From the NCBI GenBank assembly GCA_020725805.1, contig DYEF01000106.1, forward strand, positions 1 to 19,391: a stretch of 19,391 bases of DNA, given 5' to 3'. Positions 132 to 19,391 of this stretch are shown here, piece by piece. Source of the stretch: Bdellovibrio sp. (lineage in GTDB: Bacteria; Myxococcota; SpSt-1050). Position 1 is the first letter of the stretch, and the number at the start of each line of letters is the position of its first letter. The translations under genes and the position numbers were made by a program. Below the pieces are notes generated by a model. The model searched no databases. It had not been told where the DNA came from and saw only the letters and a list, made by a program, of their open reading frames with translations.

Positions 132-2969
132 TTGGAAGAAAAAAATAAAATCATTGAAAGCCTTTTCAATATACAGAGCAGAGAGGTAAAAAAGACCTTT
201 TTAATGTTCTTCTATATTCTCTTAGGGGTCAGTACCTTTATCGTTGGACGTGCAGTAAGGGATGCACTCTTTCTTTCAAGATACAACATATCATCGCTCC
301 CTTATATGTATGTACTCGTTGCAATAGTTGTATCGGTTTCGGCACTCATATATTCGAGATATATCAAAAACTTCAGGACATCCTCGGTTATAATGTTTAT
401 AGATATTCTCTTTTCTGCTGTATTTATTCTCTTCTGGCTTGCAATCAGACTGAAATTTTCAAACTATGTCTACCCTGCACTGTATGTCTTTGTAGAGATA
501 GCCGGAAGTCTAATAATAGTTCCGTTCTGGACATTCGCTAATGAGATATTTACCTCACGCGAGGCCAAAAGGCTGTTCGGTATAATCGGAGCCGGAGGCG
601 TACTTGCCAATGTTGCGGCAGGCGGTCTTACCAAGATGATAGTACATTATGTTGGCACCGAAAACCTGCTTCTGATATGCTCACTGATTCTCCTCTTTGC
701 ATCTGCCATAATCTTCAGGGTGAGCAGGAGTACGGATATTATCAATGTCCTGCCTATGCAGGAACAGAAGAGACAATCCCAGAATATCCTGAGAGATATC
801 GGTAATATATTCTCCGAAGACTATACCCGAAAACTGGCCCTTATCGTAATCGTGATGGCCATTGTAATCACGTCTGTTGACTATCAGTTCAAGGTTCTTG
901 CAAAGAGCAGCTTTACGAAGGAGAATTCACTGACCGAATTCCTTGCAATGTTTGTATTCTCTACAGGTATAATTGCCTGCATTATTCAGTTTTTCATTAC
1001 CGGAAGATTTGTCAACAAATACGGAATCTTTGCAGCCCTCTTTACACTTCCGCTCTTTACCGGTCTGGGTATAACGGTCTTTATCTTCTACGGCACACTT
1101 CTGGCAATAGGTATATCGCAGGCCTCAAACTATATGTTCAGATATACTGTCTGGGATTCGACGTTTCAGATGCTCTATATCCCTATTTCACCAAAGAAGA
1201 GAAATTCATCCAAGGCAATTATAGACGGCGTATTCAAACAGCTGTCAAACGGCATAGCAGGTCTGATTCTCATATTTATGGTAAAAGGTCCCAGAATACT
1301 GATTCTCTCCCTGATGGTTATTATGGCTGTTACCTGGATTGTTTTACTCATAAGACTCCGTAAAAATTATATGCAGGTGCTCTTTGAATCGCTCCAGAAG
1401 AAGAGAATAGACCTCGAAGACTCAGGGTTTTCAATCAGTGACGAAAAGACTATCCGGCAGCTCGAGGAGATACTCGCAAGTTCAAAGAACAAGGAAGAGA
1501 TACTGGGCGCAATGGACCTGATACAGTATGCAAAAAATTATAACTGGATAAACACTATCAATAAGCTCCTCAGTCATCAGGAACCGGAAATCAGAAAAAA
1601 GGCAATTATGCTCTATGCACAGTGGGGATGGGGAATAGATATTTCACATCTTATTAACGCCCTCAATGATAAAAATGAAGAGGTAGTTGCAGAGGCAATC
1701 AACTCAGCCTGTATCATTATGAAGGAACGCGCTATAAATCTCATTGGCAAATATCTGACAAACAACAATCCCATGATCCGCTCATATGCAATAGCGGGTC
1801 TTATCAAATACGGCGGACTGGATGGTATTCTCAGATCTGCCGAACAACTGAAAAAGATGCTCGATTCAAAAGATAATGAAGAAAGGAAGTATGCGACTCG
1901 GGCACTGAGAATCATCGGCTCGAGAAATTTTTATCAGCCTCTCTTCAAGCTTCTTGCAGACTCCGACCCTGAAATTCAGAAAGAGGCTATACAGGCATCC
2001 TGTGAAATTAAGAGTATAGAATTACTGCCGGCACTGATCTACAAACTTCAGGACAAGGAACTATCGCCGGTTTTGATAACATCACTCCCCAATTACGGGG
2101 ATGACGCAATCGAGACACTCGGCAAGGTAGCAGAATTCAGGGCCGAAAAGATGGCTATCAGGGAAAAAATCCCGAAAATCATTGCCGGAATCAGGTCTCA
2201 GAAGGCTCTCGACAAACTCGTCTATCTCCTCCACCTCCCGGAGGAGTATATGCTTCTGAAAATATCCGTATATATCTCGAAACTGATTCATGAAAATCCC
2301 AGTCTCAGAATCGATGAAAAACCTGTCTACGATAAAATTAAGGCGATCAACGAGAAGATTTACAGATATATACTGATTGACGAATATTTCAACAAGACAC
2401 GTGACCCTCTGCTCTCAGAATGTATAAGAGACCGTATAAAGACAAATATACTTATTTCCCTGAGACTTCTGGACGCCCTCTATCCCCAGAAACAGATTTC
2501 GACCATAATATTCAATCTTGACTCATCCGTTCTTTCAAGGCGGGCAAATGCCATTGAAGCCATTGATAATATGTTTAACCAGCAGGAGTTCAAGAGACTG
2601 ACACAATTTATGGAATTTATCTATCTCGAGGGGAAAAGGCCCGAAGTCCTGAAATCAGGTGTCGAGGACGAGCAAGGTAAACGGGATAATATTCTTAGAG
2701 AAATATTCGAACAAAAGGATTACTGGCTTACTTTCTGCCTTATTAATGTCCTTTCCGCCGACTATCTCATGAATTTTTCATCACTGCTCGAAAAACTCTT
2801 CAAGGAATCTGAAGATATCATCAGGGAGGCCATACTGCTCAAAATAGTCTATTCGGGCATGAGGCTCCTTCCGGAAGACCTCGCAGAAAAGGTCAAACAC
2901 TACAATTCAGATATAATAAAGTTTCTTGAGTCCAAGGTCAAACAGGTCTATACGGAGGGTGCAAAATGA
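132..2969 (+). CDS. NTT/Tlc-family nucleotide transporter with C-terminal HEAT repeats
   Basis: This inner-membrane carrier resembles ATP/ADP translocases (NTT/Tlc). About residues 20-410 hold some 12 hydrophobic segments; about 440-720 is soluble and shows HEAT-like helical repeats, followed by a further helical tail to residue 945. Family landmarks are visible: RDAL in helix 1 (R43), VEIAGS with the PFWTFANE stretch (E122 on), SVDYQFK (D250, K254) and SKAIID (K361). From memory of the plant and chlamydial carriers these align with the four essential charged residues K, E, E, K, with charge kept but two conservative swaps (K to R, E to D). The start is TTG at 132, chosen for its AGGGG ribosome site. 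The next gene, a cyclic-nucleotide-binding protein, overlaps by ATGA, so the two are probably translationally coupled. Free-living bacteria have such carriers; the substrate (ATP/ADP exchange, net nucleotide uptake or something else) cannot be told from sequence. The family call is solid, the function less so. Confidence 0.85.
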   Translation: MEEKNKIIESLFNIQSREVKKTFLMFFYILLGVSTFIVGRAVRDALFLSRYNISSLPYMYVLVAIVVSVSALIYSRYIKNFRTSSVIMFIDILFSAVFILFWLAIRLKFSNYVYPALYVFVEIAGSLIIVPFWTFANEIFTSREAKRLFGIIGAGGVLANVAAGGLTKMIVHYVGTENLLLICSLILLFASAIIFRVSRSTDIINVLPMQEQKRQSQNILRDIGNIFSEDYTRKLALIVIVMAIVITSVDYQFKVLAKSSFTKENSLTEFLAMFVFSTGIIACIIQFFITGRFVNKYGIFAALFTLPLFTGLGITVFIFYGTLLAIGISQASNYMFRYTVWDSTFQMLYIPISPKKRNSSKAIIDGVFKQLSNGIAGLILIFMVKGPRILILSLMVIMAVTWIVLLIRLRKNYMQVLFESLQKKRIDLEDSGFSISDEKTIRQLEEILASSKNKEEILGAMDLIQYAKNYNWINTINKLLSHQEPEIRKKAIMLYAQWGWGIDISHLINALNDKNEEVVAEAINSACIIMKERAINLIGKYLTNNNPMIRSYAIAGLIKYGGLDGILRSAEQLKKMLDSKDNEERKYATRALRIIGSRNFYQPLFKLLADSDPEIQKEAIQASCEIKSIELLPALIYKLQDKELSPVLITSLPNYGDDAIETLGKVAEFRAEKMAIREKIPKIIAGIRSQKALDKLVYLLHLPEEYMLLKISVYISKLIHENPSLRIDEKPVYDKIKAINEKIYRYILIDEYFNKTRDPLLSECIRDRIKTNILISLRLLDALYPQKQISTIIFNLDSSVLSRRANAIEAIDNMFNQQEFKRLTQFMEFIYLEGKRPEVLKSGVEDEQGKRDNILREIFEQKDYWLTFCLINVLSADYLMNFSSLLEKLFKESEDIIREAILLKIVYSGMRLLPEDLAEKVKHYNSDIIKFLESKVKQVYTEGAK

Positions 2970-3400
2970 TAACTACTCTTGAGAAGGTACTCTTTCTGAA
3001 AGAAGTAAGTCTGTTCAGGAATATATCATCCGAGAGACTCGCAAAGATTGCAACAATAGCAAAGGAGGTTGAATTCCTGAAAGGGGATAAGATAATCAAT
3101 GAAGGTGACGAGGGAGATTCACTGTTTATAATAGTAGAAGGAAATGTCAGCATAATAAAGGGTAAGGATATTATAGCAAAACTCGGCCCGAGGGACTTCT
3201 TCGGAGAGATGGCAATTCTCGATTCGGAGCCGCGTTCGGCATCCGTTATTGCTGATTCGGAGATTGTATGCCTTAAGATTCTAAGAGAAGATTTTACCGA
3301 GATACTGATAGACGAACACGAGATAATGCTGGCAATCATCAGGTCACTCGTCCACAGACTGAGACAATCAAATATCAAGTCAGAAAAGAAGAATCAATAG
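2966..3400 (+). CDS. single-domain cyclic-nucleotide-binding protein
   Basis: This 144-residue protein is almost wholly one CAP/PKA-type cNMP-binding beta-roll. It opens with the LFLKEVSLFRNIS stretch typical of the domain, has glycine turns at EGDEGDSLFIIVEGN (about 46-60), and a phosphate-binding cassette FFGEMAILDSEPRSAS at about 78-93. Glu81 and Arg90 of the cassette are present, so real cAMP or cGMP binding is plausible. There is no helix-turn-helix, so it is not a CRP-type transcription factor. The ATG overlaps the transporter stop as ATGA, implying co-translation. The obvious inference is a detached sensory subunit for the HEAT-tailed transporter. Alternatively it is a stand-alone protein of unknown partner. 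Its stop overlaps the convergent sugar transferase gene by 7 bases. Confidence 0.88.
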   Translation: MITTLEKVLFLKEVSLFRNISSERLAKIATIAKEVEFLKGDKIINEGDEGDSLFIIVEGNVSIIKGKDIIAKLGPRDFFGEMAILDSEPRSASVIADSEIVCLKILREDFTEILIDEHEIMLAIIRSLVHRLRQSNIKSEKKNQ

Positions 3401-9118: not shown

Positions 9119-9897
9119 TACCTTACAATACCTCTTGAAGATGACCTTATAAAACCTGTAAATATTCCGAGTTCCGGCATAAGAGGCAGAAGTTCACTAT
9201 CTATCTTCGACAGGGCATCTCTGAGGAGTAAACCTTCCTGATATATAATTCTGTATGCCTTTTTGATCAGGGATATCTTGGCGGAATCAAATCCGTTTCT
9301 CTTCAGACCTTTAATATTGATTCCGAAAGGTTTTGCCCTGTTCCCCTCGACAAGCAGAAACGGCGGAACATCCTGAGAAACCATAGAACCGCCGCCTACC
9401 ATAACATATTCACCGATCTTGACAAACTGATGAATCCCAACCATTCCGCCAATCACGGCATAATCCCGTATCTCGACATGTCCGGCAAGCGTTGCCAGAT
9501 TTGCAAGAATTATATTGTTGTGCAGAATGCAGTCGTGTGCGATATGGGAATAACTCATAATCAGATTATTATCACCTATAACCGTCTTTCCGTTCCCGTC
9601 AACGGAACCGATTGAAATATTTACATATTCCCTTATCTGGTTATTCTTCCCTATGACAAGCTCAGTATCCTCGCCCTTATATTTAATATCCTGAGGTCTG
9701 ACACCAATTGATGAAAAATGACCTATATACGAATTCTCTCCAATTGAAACACGGTTTTCTATAATAACAGACCTACCTATCCTCACCCTTCTTCCGATTC
9801 TGACATTGTCTCCAATAACAGTAAAAGGTCCAATATACACATCTTCATCAAGTTGTGCCTTCTTCGAAACTGTTGCCGAAGGTTCAATTATTGTCAT
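9118..9897 (-). CDS. lpxA: acyl-ACP--UDP-N-acetylglucosamine O-acyltransferase LpxA
   Basis: LpxA transfers a 3-hydroxyacyl chain from ACP to UDP-GlcNAc, the first step of lipid A synthesis, in the cytosol. The 259 residues begin with many hexapeptide repeats of the left-handed beta-helix (about 10-180), followed by the helical C-terminal trimer region. The catalytic His is H121 in SHIAHDC, equivalent to E. coli H125. HQF (156-158) and NRAKPFGIN (about 186-194) are conserved. The chain-length ruler position, E. coli Gly173, is Gly169 here. The normally strong motif TIHRGT reads NISIGS (93-98), a striking change close to the active site. It follows the TPR gene by three bases and overlaps lpxI by one. 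The assignment is secure; whether the acceptor is UDP-GlcNAc or its 3-amino analogue is open. Confidence 0.95.
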   Translation of the reverse strand: MTIIEPSATVSKKAQLDEDVYIGPFTVIGDNVRIGRRVRIGRSVIIENRVSIGENSYIGHFSSIGVRPQDIKYKGEDTELVIGKNNQIREYVNISIGSVDGNGKTVIGDNNLIMSYSHIAHDCILHNNIILANLATLAGHVEIRDYAVIGGMVGIHQFVKIGEYVMVGGGSMVSQDVPPFLLVEGNRAKPFGINIKGLKRNGFDSAKISLIKKAYRIIYQEGLLLRDALSKIDSELLPLMPELGIFTGFIRSSSRGIVR

Positions 9898-9900
9898 AAA

Positions 9901-10776
9901 TTATTCTGTCTTCTCTTTGGTTAAAGCCCTGATTCTTCTTAGGGCATTCTTTGCTAAAGGAGAATTCGGATATAGTTTTAATAATTCATTATATGTATTG
10001 ATTGCATCTTTTCTTCTGCCGTACATCTCATAGAATAGGGCAAGTTTATTATAAAGTTCTGCTGCATTCTGCGCCTGCTGATATTTTTTGGTGGCACTCT
10101 GAAGAATCTCTTCTGCCTTTGCGCTGTCACCTTTCTTGATATAGAAGTCAGACTCCACGCTTATAATTTTTATATACTCCTCATCAGTATTGATAAACCC
10201 ATACGCCTTTTTTATATTCTCTTCTGCAAAATCGAGCTTCTTGTTATTGATATTATCAAGTGCCTTACCGGTATATTTGAGAAAAAGTTCACGTTTGATG
10301 CTGTTTATGTTATCATTTATCACACGTTTCTGAAATGCAGTCATATCCTTCGATGCAATCTTCATAATCATATCTGCAGCCTCTTCCTTTTTACCTTCAT
10401 CGACGAGAGAGAGTGATTGCAGAATGGTTTTTTCTATATTGTCCCTTCCCTGAATCTGTTCCTTCAGGTTCCTGACTTCCTGTGAATACTGGTCGAGTTC
10501 ATCCTTCATTCTGTTACGCTCATCAGTAACCACCTTTATCTTGACGTCAAAGGCCTTGTAGGAAAGAAATATTATTACAATGATGAACAGAATATAGACA
10601 ACAATGCCATTAATATATGACCTCTTATAAAAAACTTCCTGCCGCTTATACACATTCTTGATATCAGCGGAGAGATTCATAACGAGATTGTCGGTCTTGT
10701 TTATAAGATTTCTGATATCCTGAATCTCTTTTTTCAGATTCTCGAATTCCGGACTTTTATTCTGATTATCAGCCAA
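9901..10776 (-). CDS. membrane-anchored coiled-coil/TPR protein
   Basis: This 291-residue protein has no recognised specific name. A charged cytoplasmic-type N-terminus with heptad character (about 8-50) is followed by one membrane helix (about 56-73). A coiled coil runs about 83-112, then an alpha-helical region with TPR-like repeats, clearest at about 200-285 (SAKAEEILQSATKKYQ; LYNKLALFYEMYGRRKDAINTYNELLKLYPNSP). This is an inner-membrane scaffold topology. Topology from the positive residues before the helix suggests the TPR part is periplasmic. The start is TTG at 10776, supported by AGGAGGT five bases upstream. It is first in the lipid A operon, three bases before lpxA, so it may tie an envelope assembly task to lipid A supply. 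This role is only inferred from position. Confidence 0.75.
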   Translation of the reverse strand: MADNQNKSPEFENLKKEIQDIRNLINKTDNLVMNLSADIKNVYKRQEVFYKRSYINGIVVYILFIIVIIFLSYKAFDVKIKVVTDERNRMKDELDQYSQEVRNLKEQIQGRDNIEKTILQSLSLVDEGKKEEAADMIMKIASKDMTAFQKRVINDNINSIKRELFLKYTGKALDNINNKKLDFAEENIKKAYGFINTDEEYIKIISVESDFYIKKGDSAKAEEILQSATKKYQQAQNAAELYNKLALFYEMYGRRKDAINTYNELLKLYPNSPLAKNALRRIRALTKEKTE

Positions 10777-10781
10777 TTCAG

Positions 10782-10788
10782 ACCTCCT
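10782..10788 (-). promoter_or_regulatory. strong Shine-Dalgarno site supporting a TTG start
   Basis: AGGAGGT on the minus strand, five bases before the TTG at 10776, is a full match to anti-Shine-Dalgarno. It supports the rare start codon of the TPR gene. Confidence 0.8.
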
Positions 10789-10835
10789 GAAGATTAAATA
10801 AAGTCTGCAAAAGCTCTCTGAAACAATTGCCCCCT

Positions 10836-10862
10836 AATATAACATAATTGCCAAAAATTCAA
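10836..10862 (-). promoter_or_regulatory. candidate promoter for the TPR-lpxA-lpxI-gfo operon
   Basis: On the minus strand an extended -10 TGTTATATT (10836-10844) is preceded, with a 15-base spacer, by a partial -35 TTGAAT (10857-10862). A start near 10829 would give a leader of about 50 bases. It lies in the 94-base gap between two minus-strand genes, the only non-coding DNA near this operon. Confidence 0.45.
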
Positions 10863-10870
10863 ATTATAAA

Positions 10871-11827
10871 TTATTTACCGAGAATCTTTCTGAAGTATCC
10901 GATTGTTTTTCTAAGTCCTGTCTCGAGGTCGGTTTTGGGATTGTAACCGAATAGTTTTTTTGCAAGTGAAATATCAGGACATCTTCTCACGGGATCATCT
11001 GGAGGTATTTTCTTATAGATAATTTTTGACTTTGAATGTGTAAGCTTTATGACAAGTTCTGCGAGCTCGATAATCCTGAATTCCGACGGATTCCCCAGAT
11101 TTACAGGACCCGAAAGGTCGGTCTTTCCGTTACGTCCCGTCTTTTCTGTAAACATATACTTCAAAAGCCCCTCTATAAGGTCATCTATATAACAAAACGA
11201 CCTCGTCTGCTCCCCTCTGCCATAGACAGTTATAGGTTCATTCTCAAGTGCCTGAACAATGAAATTCGAGATTACCCTCCCGTCGTTAGGCAGCATATTC
11301 GGTCCGTATGTATTGAATATTCTGACAACCCTAATATCAACCCCGTTTTGTCTGTGATATGAAAAGCAGAGCGCCTCTGCACACCTTTTACCTTCATCGT
11401 AGCAGGCTCTCAGACCGATGGGATTGACATTGCCCCAGTAGTCTTCATTCTGCGGATGAAGAGTCGGGTCACCATAAACTTCGCTTGTTGATGCCTGAAG
11501 AATCCTCGCCCTTACCCTTTTGGCAAGACCGAGCATATTCAGCATCCCGAGGACATTGGTCTTTATGGTCTTTACAGGATTATGCTGATAATGAACAGGA
11601 GATGCGGGACAGGCAAGATTGAATATCATATCGACTTCCAGAAGAATAGGCAACGTAATATCGTGCCTGATAAATTCAAAGTTTGAAAGTTTGAAAAGAT
11701 GATTTATATTCTCTTTTGAACCGGAAAAGAGATTGTCGAGACAAATAACATAGTGTCCCTCTTTTACAAGTCTTTCACACAAGTGCGACCCAATAAAACC
11801 AGCTCCTCCTGTAACAAGGATTCTCAT
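10871..11827 (-). CDS. UDP-glucuronate decarboxylase (UDP-xylose synthase)
   Basis: This extended short-chain dehydrogenase of 318 residues converts UDP-glucuronate to UDP-xylose with bound NAD. It has the GGAGFIGSH dinucleotide site (7-15), [10 protein letters not shown] (about 71-80), the catalytic set TSEVYGD (T114, E116) and YDEGK (Y143, K147). The [11 protein letters not shown] stretch just before the tyrosine and RIFNTYGP are diagnostic of UXS rather than of epimerases. The similarity to animal UXS1, as I remember it, is high across the whole length. The start is ATG with a strong AGGAGGAG site that overlaps the ugd stop. Ugd, directly upstream, makes its substrate. The product could be a donor for a xylose-containing glycan, or an intermediate. 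An ArnA-type decarboxylase is less likely because that enzyme is a fusion with different signatures. Confidence 0.92.
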
Positions 11828-13174: not shown

Positions 13175-15304
13175 CTATCTGCTGTCATATCTCAAAAGAC
13201 ACACAACTGTCCTTGCATTTACAAAATAGCCGTTTGATACATCCAGCGGATATTCTGTCTCGCTTTCAGCCGCACATTCAGGGAATCTGAGACTTGTGTC
13301 AATGATTCTGTACCATCTGCTGTTTTTAATCTTCGGGATTTTGAAGAGTTTTGGTTCCCAGAATGAATTGATTATAATGAAAAAATCCTTATTTTTCGGT
13401 CTGTCAGAGTTCTGTTCCCTTACATACCCTTCTATTAGGAACGCAAGAGAATACTCATCATATTTATTCCAGCTGGGTACTCTGAGTTTTTCATTATACC
13501 ACTTTACCGTAAAATGCTCTGTATCAATCCTCCGTATCTCGTCGAAGAAATATGGTCTTCTGAAATGCGGATTATTATTCCTTATTCTGATACATCTTCT
13601 GACAAATTCAAAAAACTCGTTATTCTTTTTCAGAAAATCCCAGTTGTAATATGAAATCTCGTTGTCCATACAATATGCATTATTGTTACCCTTCTGTGTT
13701 CTCTTGATTTCATCTCCTCCAAGCATCATAGGGACGCCTTGTGACAACATCAGAACCGCCATAAAATTCTTCATAAGTCTGTCTCTTATACCCAGAATCT
13801 CGGGATTATCCGTCTCTCCTTCAACTCCCCAGTTATATGAATAGTTCTCATCGGAACCGTCTTTATTATTTTCGAGATTCATCTCATTATGCTTTTTCGA
13901 ATAACTGACAAGGTCATTTAGTGTAAAACCGTCGTGAGAGGTAATAAAATTAATACTATGAGAGGGTGTCCTTCCGCTGACACCATAAAGGTCTGAACTG
14001 CCCGTAAGCCTGTAACCCATTTCGGCAATCATACCTGCATCGGATTTGATAAATCTCCTTACCGCATCCCTGTATTTGCCGTTTAGCTCAGCCCAGTTGA
14101 GAGGGAAATTACCCAGCTGATAGGAATCCTCGGGTGCTACATCCCATGGTTCGGCAATTAGCTTTACACTTGATAGTACCGGGTCCTGATGAACTGCCAC
14201 GAAGAAGGAACTGACCTGTGAAAATCTTCCGTTACTTCTTCCCAGAACAGATGCCAGGTCAAATCTGAATCCGTCAACGTGCATCTCAGTTACCCAGTAT
14301 CTGAGGGAATCCATTATAAGTTTTATTACCTGAGGTTCGTCATAATTCAGAGAGTTCCCGCATCCGCTGTAATCCTCATAATATCTCCTGTCGTCTTTGA
14401 GTTTATAATATGTAGGGTTGTCAATCCCTCTGAAACAGAGTGTGGGCCCGAGTTCATTACCTTCACAGGTATGATTATAAACTACGTCGAGGATTACTTC
14501 TATTCCTGCTTTGTGGAGCTTCTTTACCATCTGTTTGAATTCGCTGACCTGACAGCCGGGATATGCATTGGTTGAATATCTCGAATCAGGTGCAAAATAA
14601 CCAAGGGTGTTATACCCCCAGTAATTGGAAAGTCCCTTATGCCTCAGAAAGATATCCTGATGGGAATGATGGACAGGCAGAAACTGGACGCAGTTTATCC
14701 CGAGTCTCTTCAGGTAATCAATCTTTTCGATGACACCGGAATATGTACCCGGATGCTCTACAGATGAACTCGGATGTGCCGTTAGTCCCTTTATGTGTGT
14801 CTCATATATTACAATTTCATTTGCGGGCAAAAAGAGCTGTCTGTCTCCCTCCCAGTCGAATCTGTCGTCAACGACCACACATTTCGGGGCATAGGCGATA
14901 TTGTCGGTATTCGAAAAGGAGAGGTCTTTTTGAGGAGAATTAAAGTCATAGCCAAAATGGTCACCCCTGATGTCGTAATCACCCGTAATCGCCTTTGCAT
15001 AGGGGTCCATAAGGATTTTATTGGGATTAAATCTAAGTCCTTCTTCCGGTTTGTATTTCCCGTAAATCCTGTATGCGTACAATTGTCCTGCCCCGAGTCC
15101 CTCAGTAAAAATGTGCCAGACATTCATTGTCCTGTTCTTTAGCAGAAATGTGTGGGAAGGAACGGTATCATCAGGATAATCGAAGAGAAGAAGCTCTACT
15201 GCCTCGGCATATTTTGAATAGATGGCAAAATTGACCCCTCCCTCACATAATGTTGCGCCTAAGGGGAAGAATCTTCCGCTGCTCACTCTGATCTTTCTGT
15301 CCAC
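13175..15304 (-). CDS. glgX: glycogen debranching enzyme GlgX (GH13 isoamylase type)
   Basis: GlgX hydrolyses alpha-1,6 branches of phosphorylase limit glycogen in the cytosol. The 709 residues hold an N-terminal CBM48 domain (about 10-110), a GH13 catalytic barrel (about 165-560) and a C-terminal beta domain. All GH13 conserved regions are present: DVVYNH (D273), DGFRFDLAS with nucleophile D349, AEPWD with acid E385, and TSHDG with D458. LGGDEIKRTQKGNNNAYC is the usual GlgX/TreX segment. The start is GTG at 15304 sharing one base with the upstream stop (TAGTG), with AGGT a few bases earlier. It is placed between a FAD-fold gene and ugd. The link to sugar-nucleotide synthesis may be glucose supply. 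No other glycogen gene is in the window. TreX-like activity on longer branches cannot be excluded. Confidence 0.92.
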   Translation of the reverse strand: MDRKIRVSSGRFFPLGATLCEGGVNFAIYSKYAEAVELLLFDYPDDTVPSHTFLLKNRTMNVWHIFTEGLGAGQLYAYRIYGKYKPEEGLRFNPNKILMDPYAKAITGDYDIRGDHFGYDFNSPQKDLSFSNTDNIAYAPKCVVVDDRFDWEGDRQLFLPANEIVIYETHIKGLTAHPSSSVEHPGTYSGVIEKIDYLKRLGINCVQFLPVHHSHQDIFLRHKGLSNYWGYNTLGYFAPDSRYSTNAYPGCQVSEFKQMVKKLHKAGIEVILDVVYNHTCEGNELGPTLCFRGIDNPTYYKLKDDRRYYEDYSGCGNSLNYDEPQVIKLIMDSLRYWVTEMHVDGFRFDLASVLGRSNGRFSQVSSFFVAVHQDPVLSSVKLIAEPWDVAPEDSYQLGNFPLNWAELNGKYRDAVRRFIKSDAGMIAEMGYRLTGSSDLYGVSGRTPSHSINFITSHDGFTLNDLVSYSKKHNEMNLENNKDGSDENYSYNWGVEGETDNPEILGIRDRLMKNFMAVLMLSQGVPMMLGGDEIKRTQKGNNNAYCMDNEISYYNWDFLKKNNEFFEFVRRCIRIRNNNPHFRRPYFFDEIRRIDTEHFTVKWYNEKLRVPSWNKYDEYSLAFLIEGYVREQNSDRPKNKDFFIIINSFWEPKLFKIPKIKNSRWYRIIDTSLRFPECAAESETEYPLDVSNGYFVNARTVVCLLRYDSR

Positions 15305-16755
15305 TACTTACCTGCTATATTCTTCGAAATTATCTCTGCCGCCCTGACAGCGGCCATAAAATCACCAAAAATTCCTATTGGTGCAAATACAGAAAAGATA
15401 TTTACAAAGTTGTCTATCCCTGTCTTCATATCACCAAGAAGTATACCGTCTTTCAGAGAAAAATCCGTAAAAAGATACTGTGAATATCTGTAATCAGTCT
15501 TCTTAATCTCGTTCATATTGACATCAAGAAGCATATCTGCATCAAGTACCGAGGATGAACTGACAATAAACTCATTTACGAAGGGAAAGATATTCTGGAG
15601 AATCTCCAGTGCGTTCCTGTTGAGAATATCAGAGTTTTTCCTGATAAATTCCTGAGGTTTAATGAAGGTCGTAACTGAGATTATCTGATTTTCCTTTAAA
15701 ATCGCCCTCCCCTTTATTGCCTTCGAGACCGATATCTGAAAAAGGTCAGCCGCACTTACATCTGACGCATTACGGTTATAGACAATATACTTCGAGGCAA
15801 TCTCCGGAATACAACCTGAATTTACAACAAAATTGGTAGTATATCTTACGAGATATTCCTGTCTTGGCAAAAGGAGTTTCTCAAATCTCTTTGGATTGAT
15901 AATACGGGAGAGCGATAATGCGTCAGACGAAATGAGAACGGAATCCACTCTGAAACGGCTCTCTCTCTTCTCATCCTTCAGATAATATGAAAATCCCTTT
16001 TTTTCTATAGAATAACCCTCCTTGAAATCTTTCAGGATAAGATTTCCTCTCTCTTCAAGTCTTCTGATAAGAAGTGACCTGATTCTTTCAGCGGATGGCA
16101 CTAGAATCCAGCGGTCCAGAAAGAGAAAACCAAGAAGGGCCTCCTGAGCAGGCACAGTGCGTTTTGCCTCAAGATTGGAGATAAAACACAGAATGCTTCT
16201 GAATGCATTCTTTATCTTTTCTCCTTCAAACTGGTCAAGAAGAGAACCTTTTTCCATATAACCGGCAAAAAGGTTTTCCCTGATCTTTCTCTTGTCCCAG
16301 AACGAATAAGGCGGATATGGTATGTGCCTGTTGAAGATTTCTGACAGCTCTTCCATCCGGGTACCTGCTGATTCCAGAAATCTGCGTGTCAGCTCCTTCT
16401 TTATTCCAAGTTCGCAATACAATTCCTCGATTGTTTCGTTCTTATCGACAGATATATCGAGTCTGAGCTTTCTTGTTATATACTGGAACTTATCGACAAA
16501 TTCCGCGTCTTCCTCAAATTCATTCTGGGAGAGAGAGAGATACTGGCGGATCTGTGAGAGCAGCTGTCCGAACTGAAGCGGCGGAAGCAGCACAGGAGAG
16601 ACGGGAAGCAGAAAACCCTGATACTGATAACGGTCGGCAGGAACGGAATTTCTCAGTACAACAACGTTGAAATTGAAGTGAGAGAGCAGATTGGCCGCAA
16701 TCAGACCTCCCAGATCATCACCGAAAACTAGAGTATCAAATCTCTGCAATGACAT
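15304..16755 (-). CDS. FAD/NAD(P)-fold protein of unknown function (amine oxidase/phytoene desaturase-like)
   Basis: This 483-residue protein opens with a Rossmann beta-alpha-beta unit, FDTLVFGDDLGGLIAANLL (about 6-24), followed by the strand VVVLR. The glycine pattern is GDDLGG rather than GxGxxG. At the C-terminus, GILLGDMKTGIDN and a short helix near the end resemble the closing FAD segment of flavin amine oxidases and CrtI-type desaturases. The middle is poorly conserved, with no clear substrate motif. It may be a flavoenzyme with relaxed cofactor motifs, or a derived non-catalytic member. The start is ATG two bases after the purM stop, and its stop overlaps the glgX GTG, so it is firmly in the operon. 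I do not recognise a specific function. Confidence 0.7.
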   Translation of the reverse strand: MSLQRFDTLVFGDDLGGLIAANLLSHFNFNVVVLRNSVPADRYQYQGFLLPVSPVLLPPLQFGQLLSQIRQYLSLSQNEFEEDAEFVDKFQYITRKLRLDISVDKNETIEELYCELGIKKELTRRFLESAGTRMEELSEIFNRHIPYPPYSFWDKRKIRENLFAGYMEKGSLLDQFEGEKIKNAFRSILCFISNLEAKRTVPAQEALLGFLFLDRWILVPSAERIRSLLIRRLEERGNLILKDFKEGYSIEKKGFSYYLKDEKRESRFRVDSVLISSDALSLSRIINPKRFEKLLLPRQEYLVRYTTNFVVNSGCIPEIASKYIVYNRNASDVSAADLFQISVSKAIKGRAILKENQIISVTTFIKPQEFIRKNSDILNRNALEILQNIFPFVNEFIVSSSSVLDADMLLDVNMNEIKKTDYRYSQYLFTDFSLKDGILLGDMKTGIDNFVNIFSVFAPIGIFGDFMAAVRAAEIISKNIAGK

Positions 16756-17890: not shown

Positions 17891-19391
17891 TTACTTGTTT
17901 ATCGGTATCAGATTGAGCCCGCCCGGATAGGCATAGGAAGTGTATCTTGCATACCCGTAGACCATAATACCAAAAGGCACAGATGCACTTATGCTGTGCT
18001 GACCCGGATTGATCTTTACCCTTGCCACCGAGTATTTTCCGCTTCCCAGAGAGGTAAATCCGCTTACAGGCGAGCCGTCAAGCATAATCTGCTGACCTGT
18101 AGGGGCAGTAATATTTACATAGGATTCGGTATATGTCGAGGGTGTCAGGAAATTGTAATAATCCCTGTACTGTTCAACAGGAATACCGAGCGAGAATGCC
18201 GGGTCACCCATATCGGATGTATGTGAATTCGGCCCGTTGTAATCTTCTCCTACAAGATATTGTGCAATGGAAAATGCGGAAGTCCCTTTTACCTCAAAAT
18301 CAGCGGTGGTATAGAATTCAAACCATTGCCCTTTATTGATAGTCCTGCTTGACTGGACACTCGGGGGATTGAATGTAATTGTGTTGTTATCAAATGCAGA
18401 GATAATTCTGTAGAGATTGGGCTCCTGAGGATTCTGCTTGGAAATGGTGTGGGTCATAACATAGTTCATACCCCACGTTTCAACAGGAAAGAGATTCTCC
18501 TCGAGATGGTCACAGGCCCATCTGTTAAACGGAATAAAGGCACAGTTATGAATACCAAATACGGATATCGGCTTATCGCTCTGGATATAAGTACCCGTTG
18601 CATCGTAATCCTGTCCCAGATCACAGTAGCTATAACCGCTTCCGTCGCCCTGCCAGCTCGAACAACTCGTAGGCATACTTGCCGAAATGAGTAATACTTC
18701 ACCCCTGTTCAGGGAGAAGCTGGCTGTCTGTCCTTTGGAATATGCCGGTACCCCTGAACCTGCTATTGTATTAAAGGAAAAGTTTACATTTACATTTGTT
18801 CCGTTCTGGGTCCCGACTATTGCAAAACCTGAAGGCGAACCGATAATTGTACCTACTGAGTTTTTTACAGAAAGATTTTTATAGGAAAACACATAATACC
18901 TGTAGCCAAGAACACTTGTGGGCAATAGTATGGATGCATCATTTGTATATGTATAAGCCGAACCGGATTGATACTCCAAAGGATTGAACTGGTAGACTGT
19001 AACCGGTATATTACTTACAAGATTATACGAACCGTCTGCGAGTTTTATTGATGTCTCGCTTCTGTATGTCATTTTCAGCTGGTCAACCCACGGTAGAGTC
19101 AGCACTTTGACTTCATTCGGATTTACCTGTGTGGTCGTTATTGTATTGCTCCCTCTCTTTACTGTAATATTTGCAACATATTTCTGTGTATTCGAAACCG
19201 CCACTGCAAAACTGAATCCTGTCGCGAGCTGGGAATTCATTGTCACAGTTGGCCAGTATTCGCAGCCGATATATGATTTCTCCGCCTCCGCCCTGTCACA
19301 CAACGTCATACACCTCCCGTTTATACACTGATTACCAAGATTGTTCGGGTCCGTACACTCCTCCACCTGTATAAACCCAGTCCCCGTATCA
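17891..19391 (-). CDS. IgGFc-binding-like secreted surface protein, 3' part (runs off the window)
   Basis: The reading frame stays open to the right edge of the window, so the N-terminus and signal peptide are outside; the GTG at 19366 is not a convincing start. The visible start of the protein has a cysteine cluster (ECTDP, NQCINGRC, LCDRAEAE) ending in YIGCEYWP. Next come about 450 residues of beta-rich sequence with two related segments. One is the LPTSVLGYRYYVFSY stretch, and the other contains GTYIQSDKPISVFGIHNC and CDHLEENLFPVETWG, both marks of the IgGFc-binding N-terminal domain family. The end is YGYARYTSYAYPGGLNL. Such proteins are common in myxobacteria-like genomes and are thought to be exported adhesins or surface proteins. 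IgG binding itself is not implied. It ends 98 bases before purM and is probably a separate unit. Confidence 0.82.
   Translation of the reverse strand, partial: DTGTGFIQVEECTDPNNLGNQCINGRCMTLCDRAEAEKSYIGCEYWPTVTMNSQLATGFSFAVAVSNTQKYVANITVKRGSNTITTTQVNPNEVKVLTLPWVDQLKMTYRSETSIKLADGSYNLVSNIPVTVYQFNPLEYQSGSAYTYTNDASILLPTSVLGYRYYVFSYKNLSVKNSVGTIIGSPSGFAIVGTQNGTNVNVNFSFNTIAGSGVPAYSKGQTASFSLNRGEVLLISASMPTSCSSWQGDGSGYSYCDLGQDYDATGTYIQSDKPISVFGIHNCAFIPFNRWACDHLEENLFPVETWGMNYVMTHTISKQNPQEPNLYRIISAFDNNTITFNPPSVQSSRTINKGQWFEFYTTADFEVKGTSAFSIAQYLVGEDYNGPNSHTSDMGDPAFSLGIPVEQYRDYYNFLTPSTYTESYVNITAPTGQQIMLDGSPVSGFTSLGSGKYSVARVKINPGQHSISASVPFGIMVYGYARYTSYAYPGGLNLIPINK

Follow-up and report, generated by a model that had tools for sequence, protein, structure and literature searches.

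Does a carrier of the NTT type with a long HEAT tail work together with the lone cyclic-nucleotide-binding domain (cNBD) protein encoded directly behind it, and what might such a pair move and sense? The two genes stand in the window analyzed here, one whole contig of 19,391 bp from a Myxococcota MAG of 3.29 Mb (Table 1). A sequence-only reading of this DNA had proposed a nucleotide transporter gated by cAMP or cGMP through the HEAT platform and had called such a system little described. The latter holds for its function, as we found no functional test of the NTT-HEAT/cNBD arrangement in the literature searched, but not for the arrangement itself or the hypothesis, both of which were published in 2017: Major, Embley and Williams described NTT-HEAT genes with a cNBD gene several nucleotides downstream, reported single-chain NTT-HEAT-cNBD fusions, and proposed that cAMP may tune ATP uptake (PMC5381601). 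Their systems are likened to the window pair by architecture, the common features being a C-terminal HEAT region and a downstream or fused cNBD. The main text of that paper contains no analysis of transport residues, and the words 'residue' and 'lysine' are absent from it (PMC5381601). What goes beyond that main text is the exact co-occurrence of the two genes where they are unlinked, the invariant cassette of the cNBD protein, and the missing lysines of the carrier.

Layout and conservation of the gene pair

The coupled pair was confirmed at both gene positions. The stop codon of the NTT-HEAT gene and the start codon of the cNBD gene overlap as ATGA, and GGAGG lies ∼9 nt 5' of the cNBD ATG, so translational coupling is likely; the TTG start of the NTT-HEAT gene is preceded by AGGGG. 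The ATGA overlap is retained in a congeneric sister species, where the pair stands free as a two-gene unit: the gene upstream of it is encoded on the opposite strand, and the one downstream is convergent. Raw pN/pS values against the sister species were ∼0.13/0.86 for the NTT-HEAT gene and ∼0.08/0.85 for the cNBD gene, which indicates strong purifying selection on each of them. An antisense ORF of 146 aa (2938-3378, minus strand) covers the cNBD gene and is matched by a 143-aa frame in the sister species; it is most likely a shadow frame of the cNBD gene and was treated as such.

Table 1. Features of the NTT-HEAT/cNBD locus, in window coordinates
Feature	Position	Strand	Description and basis
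NTT-HEAT gene	132..2969	+	TTG start, 945 aa; NTT/TLC-type carrier with HEAT tail
NTT/TLC-type (MFS fold) membrane domain, ~residues 1-430	132..1421	+	PF03219, 81 bits; best structural match AtNTT1
HEAT-repeat tail, ~residues 431-945, with stop codon	1422..2969	+	HEAT_2, 72 bits; helical repeats in model
Lone cNMP-binding domain (cNBD) gene	2966..3400	+	ATG start, 144 aa; PF00027, 79 bits
Phosphate-binding cassette FGEMAILDSEPRSA, cNBD residues 79-92	3200..3241	+	G80, E81, R90, A92 present in all 52 paired cNBDs
Shine-Dalgarno-like CGGAGGG for cNBD gene	2953..2959	+	Sequence; within 3' end of NTT-HEAT gene

The pairing is conserved in relatives. We scanned 69 loci encoding an NTT-HEAT protein, at 62 of which the 3' flank could be evaluated. 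At 41 of these 62 loci a cNBD of the same subtype starts no more than 600 bp downstream in the same orientation; at eight it lies 2 to 4 kb downstream, at one it is fused to the NTT-HEAT protein, and at 12 it is not nearby. Six of the eight more distant cases belong to one lineage, in which the cNBD gene follows DUF1571 and ROK genes. The single fusion (L095) is the only true one in the 69-locus set; L099 and L105 were rejected as fusions, the long cNBD frames there being shadow frames in another phase. The genome holds 12 cNMP domains in 3.29 Mb, and at that density adjacency at 41 of 62 loci by chance is negligible.

Both profiles were also searched, with thresholds set beforehand, in 156 Myxococcota genomes that were at least 90% complete. 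Sixty genomes contained both this type of NTT-HEAT protein and this subtype of cNBD, 96 contained neither, and none contained just one of them. The two genes are adjacent in 31 of the 60, on the same strand within ∼1 to 4 kb in nine, and on other contigs or opposite strands in 20. The Fisher value for this co-occurrence, 1e-44, ignores shared ancestry; the mixed families f4, f9, and f13 nevertheless show joint gain or loss of the two genes on more than one occasion. As a control for specificity, the cNBD subtype is missing from genomes that have the fused paralogue alone. Among the first 58 genomes, the one exception to the co-occurrence was a genome that is 70% complete (G044). A chance neighbor was rejected on the basis of the identical presence sets. 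Since the two genes are kept or lost together across the phylum, their products very probably work as one unit, and genomics strongly supports a functional coupling of the pair. The exact co-occurrence is a strong reason for testing it.

Fold and transport residues of the carrier

The TLC family PF03219 matches residues 109 to 413 of the NTT-HEAT protein (Pfam cut-off 21 bits). An AlphaFold2 model (mean pLDDT 83.5) places about a dozen membrane-type helices at residues 16 to 422, followed by stacked helical repeats that reach residue 944, and Pfam assigns HEAT_2 to residues 504 to 593. The best structural match of the carrier is AtNTT1 (9j3m, with a Z score of 40.6, rmsd of 2.6 and 409 aligned residues), against a Z score of 32.6 for the best non-NTT chain, an unrelated MFS protein, and the modeled domain thus has the NTT fold. 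In a tree with five canonical NTTs, the NTT-HEAT clade forms a separate branch with full support.

AtNTT1 requires four charged residues, K155, E245, E385, and K527. Its K155R variant no longer binds ADP and its K527R variant has an ATP affinity above 1 mM (PMC3306366). Some microsporidian NTTs deviate at these four positions. We located the equivalents from profile and MAFFT alignments, which were mutually consistent. The position of K155 is occupied by Y60 in the window (Tyr in 70 of 71 clade sequences) and that of K527 by N373, with Lys in none of the 71 sequences, while the acidic positions are E122 for E245 (Glu in 70/71) and D250 for E385 (Asp in 71/71). All four charged residues are retained in each of the five canonical NTTs, three of which come from reduced Myxococcota genomes. 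Compared with AtNTT1/AATP1 and Chlamydia Npt1 (PF03219), the window carrier shares the fold and the E245- and E385-type acidic residues, but has Tyr for K155, has lost K527, and comes with a HEAT tail and a sensor partner. Many further basic NTT residues are retained (R40, R43, K146, R147, R357, and K361, the last in all 71 clade sequences), which makes an anionic substrate plausible and even a nucleotide possible.

With 70.1 bits to TIGR00769 (NTP/NDP exchange transporter), the protein falls below the curated cut-off of 387.2 bits. The carrier is a member of the fold, but its residues lack the signature of an ATP/ADP exchanger. With the phosphate-binding lysines of the characterized NTTs absent, it probably moves something other than ATP/ADP. 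Of the 'nucleotide carrier' in the earlier reading, the NTT fold thus stands, whereas the label 'nucleotide transporter' is doubtful: the two ATP/ADP-binding lysines are absent across the clade, and the organism, with a genome of 3.3 Mb that carries its own purM, is not a reduced parasite. For this broadly distributed fusion group, a name taken from the fold may be wrong.

In a Myxococcota family with reduced genomes of 0.3 to 1.8 Mb, some members encode canonical TLC ATP/ADP transporters that retain all four charged residues (L128:254-1813, L129, and L130; L128 scores 621.8 bits to PF03219), which suggests a host-dependent life.

The cNBD protein and its single-chain relatives

The cNMP_binding domain (PF00027) spans residues 35 to 114 of the cNBD protein and is the sole Pfam domain found. 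The protein ends after the cNBD and has no helix-turn-helix; it shares with CAP/CRP-type proteins the cNMP-binding fold and a PKA-like cassette but lacks their DNA-binding domain, and a CRP/FNR-type transcription regulator was rejected for this reason. The intact phosphate-binding cassette claimed from the sequence was borne out, as FGEMAILDSEPRSA carries both E81 and R90, and Gly80, Glu81, Arg90, and Ala92 are invariant in the 52 paired stand-alone cNBDs. All 52 fall on a branch of their own (local support 0.90), apart from the fused cNBDs and from the remaining cNBDs encoded in the genome, and a conserved start, MISTVEKVLFLK, is common to them. The subfamily profile of the paired type gives the window cNBD 214 bits, against 98.5 for the next best cNBD of the same genome. 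The genome holds four class III cyclase domains, two of which have the full catalytic set, including the Lys and Thr that are typical of adenylate cyclases. With two catalytically complete adenylate-type cyclases predicted, cAMP is a plausible ligand of the cNBD.

Fused relatives of the kind mentioned in the sequence-only reading exist. In a deep paralogous clade from the Myxococcota, each of the ten members sampled (L118-L127) carries NTT, HEAT, and cNBD in one chain; they have the domain order of the window pair, belong to a clade separate from it, and also occur in genomes without the split pair. A fused protein used as a query against the window's genome matched the window NTT-HEAT protein with 258.7 bits; of the cNBD proteins, the window cNBD came first (80.6 bits, the next at 48.9). 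The tree grouping of paired with fused cNBDs is only weakly supported (0.42). The model of a fused homolog has a low-confidence linker (932-944). Several of the paralogues have a degenerate cassette: Glu and Arg are lost in five of the ten, with LGGVSLLDQKPHAA or a sequence near it in L118-L122, so a ligand is not always needed. Genomes of the L118-L122 family also hold a split pair with an intact cassette.

Proposed mechanism, alternatives and neighboring genes

In the mechanism that we propose, the NTT-HEAT protein would be a carrier of the NTT fold in the inner membrane, with a cytoplasmic HEAT tail that serves to dock the small cNBD protein. The latter would be the sensor, a separate subunit with a cyclic nucleotide as its ligand, most likely cAMP from the cell's class III cyclases; by docking on the HEAT tail it would change the activity of the carrier, the substrate of which is probably other than ATP/ADP. 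Physical docking, cAMP as the ligand, gating, and a non-ATP substrate are what we infer, and cyclic-nucleotide gating is plausible. On balance we lean, with modest confidence, toward such an obligate two-subunit membrane system of carrier, HEAT dock, and cAMP-sensing subunit. A more specific version is put forward only tentatively: the pair would be an obligate two-component carrier of the NTT fold, gated by a cyclic nucleotide, that no longer transports nucleotides but moves another substrate and bears a separate, dissociable sensor on its HEAT arm. If a cyclic nucleotide does directly control a secondary carrier by way of a separate subunit, this would be an unusual kind of bacterial signaling.

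The same fold could instead belong to a true translocase of ATP/ADP or another nucleotide under the control of cAMP, the view that Major et al. put forward and that the sequence-only reading suggested. The AtNTT1 match, a PF03219 score above cut-off, the conserved E122 and D250, and the many basic residues speak for it, but the K155 position is Tyr in 70 of 71 sequences and the K527 position is never Lys, changes at the very residues whose conservative replacement in AtNTT1 costs ADP binding or ATP affinity (PMC3306366). The TIGR00769 score of 70 bits against a cut-off of 387 also counts against a translocase, and a genome of free-living size that encodes its own purM offers no obvious reason for ATP import; we think this reading unlikely. 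The loss of the two key lysines would also fit a membrane domain that no longer transports and has become an anchor or receptor, on which HEAT and cNBD recruit another protein in a cAMP-dependent manner. HEAT repeats are mainly protein-binding platforms, and the variable, envelope-related neighbors, such as PD40-Omp85 and TgpA proteins, would suit that role. However, conservation of E122 (70/71), D250 (71/71), and K361 (71/71) over deep divergence fits a transport path better, and an anchor or receptor is likewise improbable.

That the cNBD is instead a structural subunit with no need for a cyclic nucleotide is suggested by the fused L118-L122 proteins, whose cassettes lack Glu and Arg, but all 52 paired stand-alone cNBDs retain the four cassette residues Gly, Glu, Arg, and Ala, and we regard a purely structural role as very unlikely.

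A survey around the NTT-HEAT loci found lineage-specific neighbors only. In one family (L054, L055, L067, L069, and L116), two tandem NTT-HEAT genes are followed by DUF1571, ROK, and cNBD genes. A gene for a PD40 beta-propeller and Omp85 protein lies directly upstream of or near the NTT-HEAT gene in several lineages (L067:2995-5901, L097:3035-5914, and L050:1843-4773). Relatives in the Archangiaceae/Myxococcaceae have a TgpA-type transglutaminase gene just upstream of the pair and a HEAT-repeat gene downstream of it (L070:3963-5951 and 9353-11137). Elsewhere in the window, a 483-aa ORF at 15304-16755 (minus strand) has zero Pfam or NCBIfam matches, and a 491-aa protein encoded at 17891-19366 (minus strand) contains an IgGFc_binding domain (PF17517, 264 bits).
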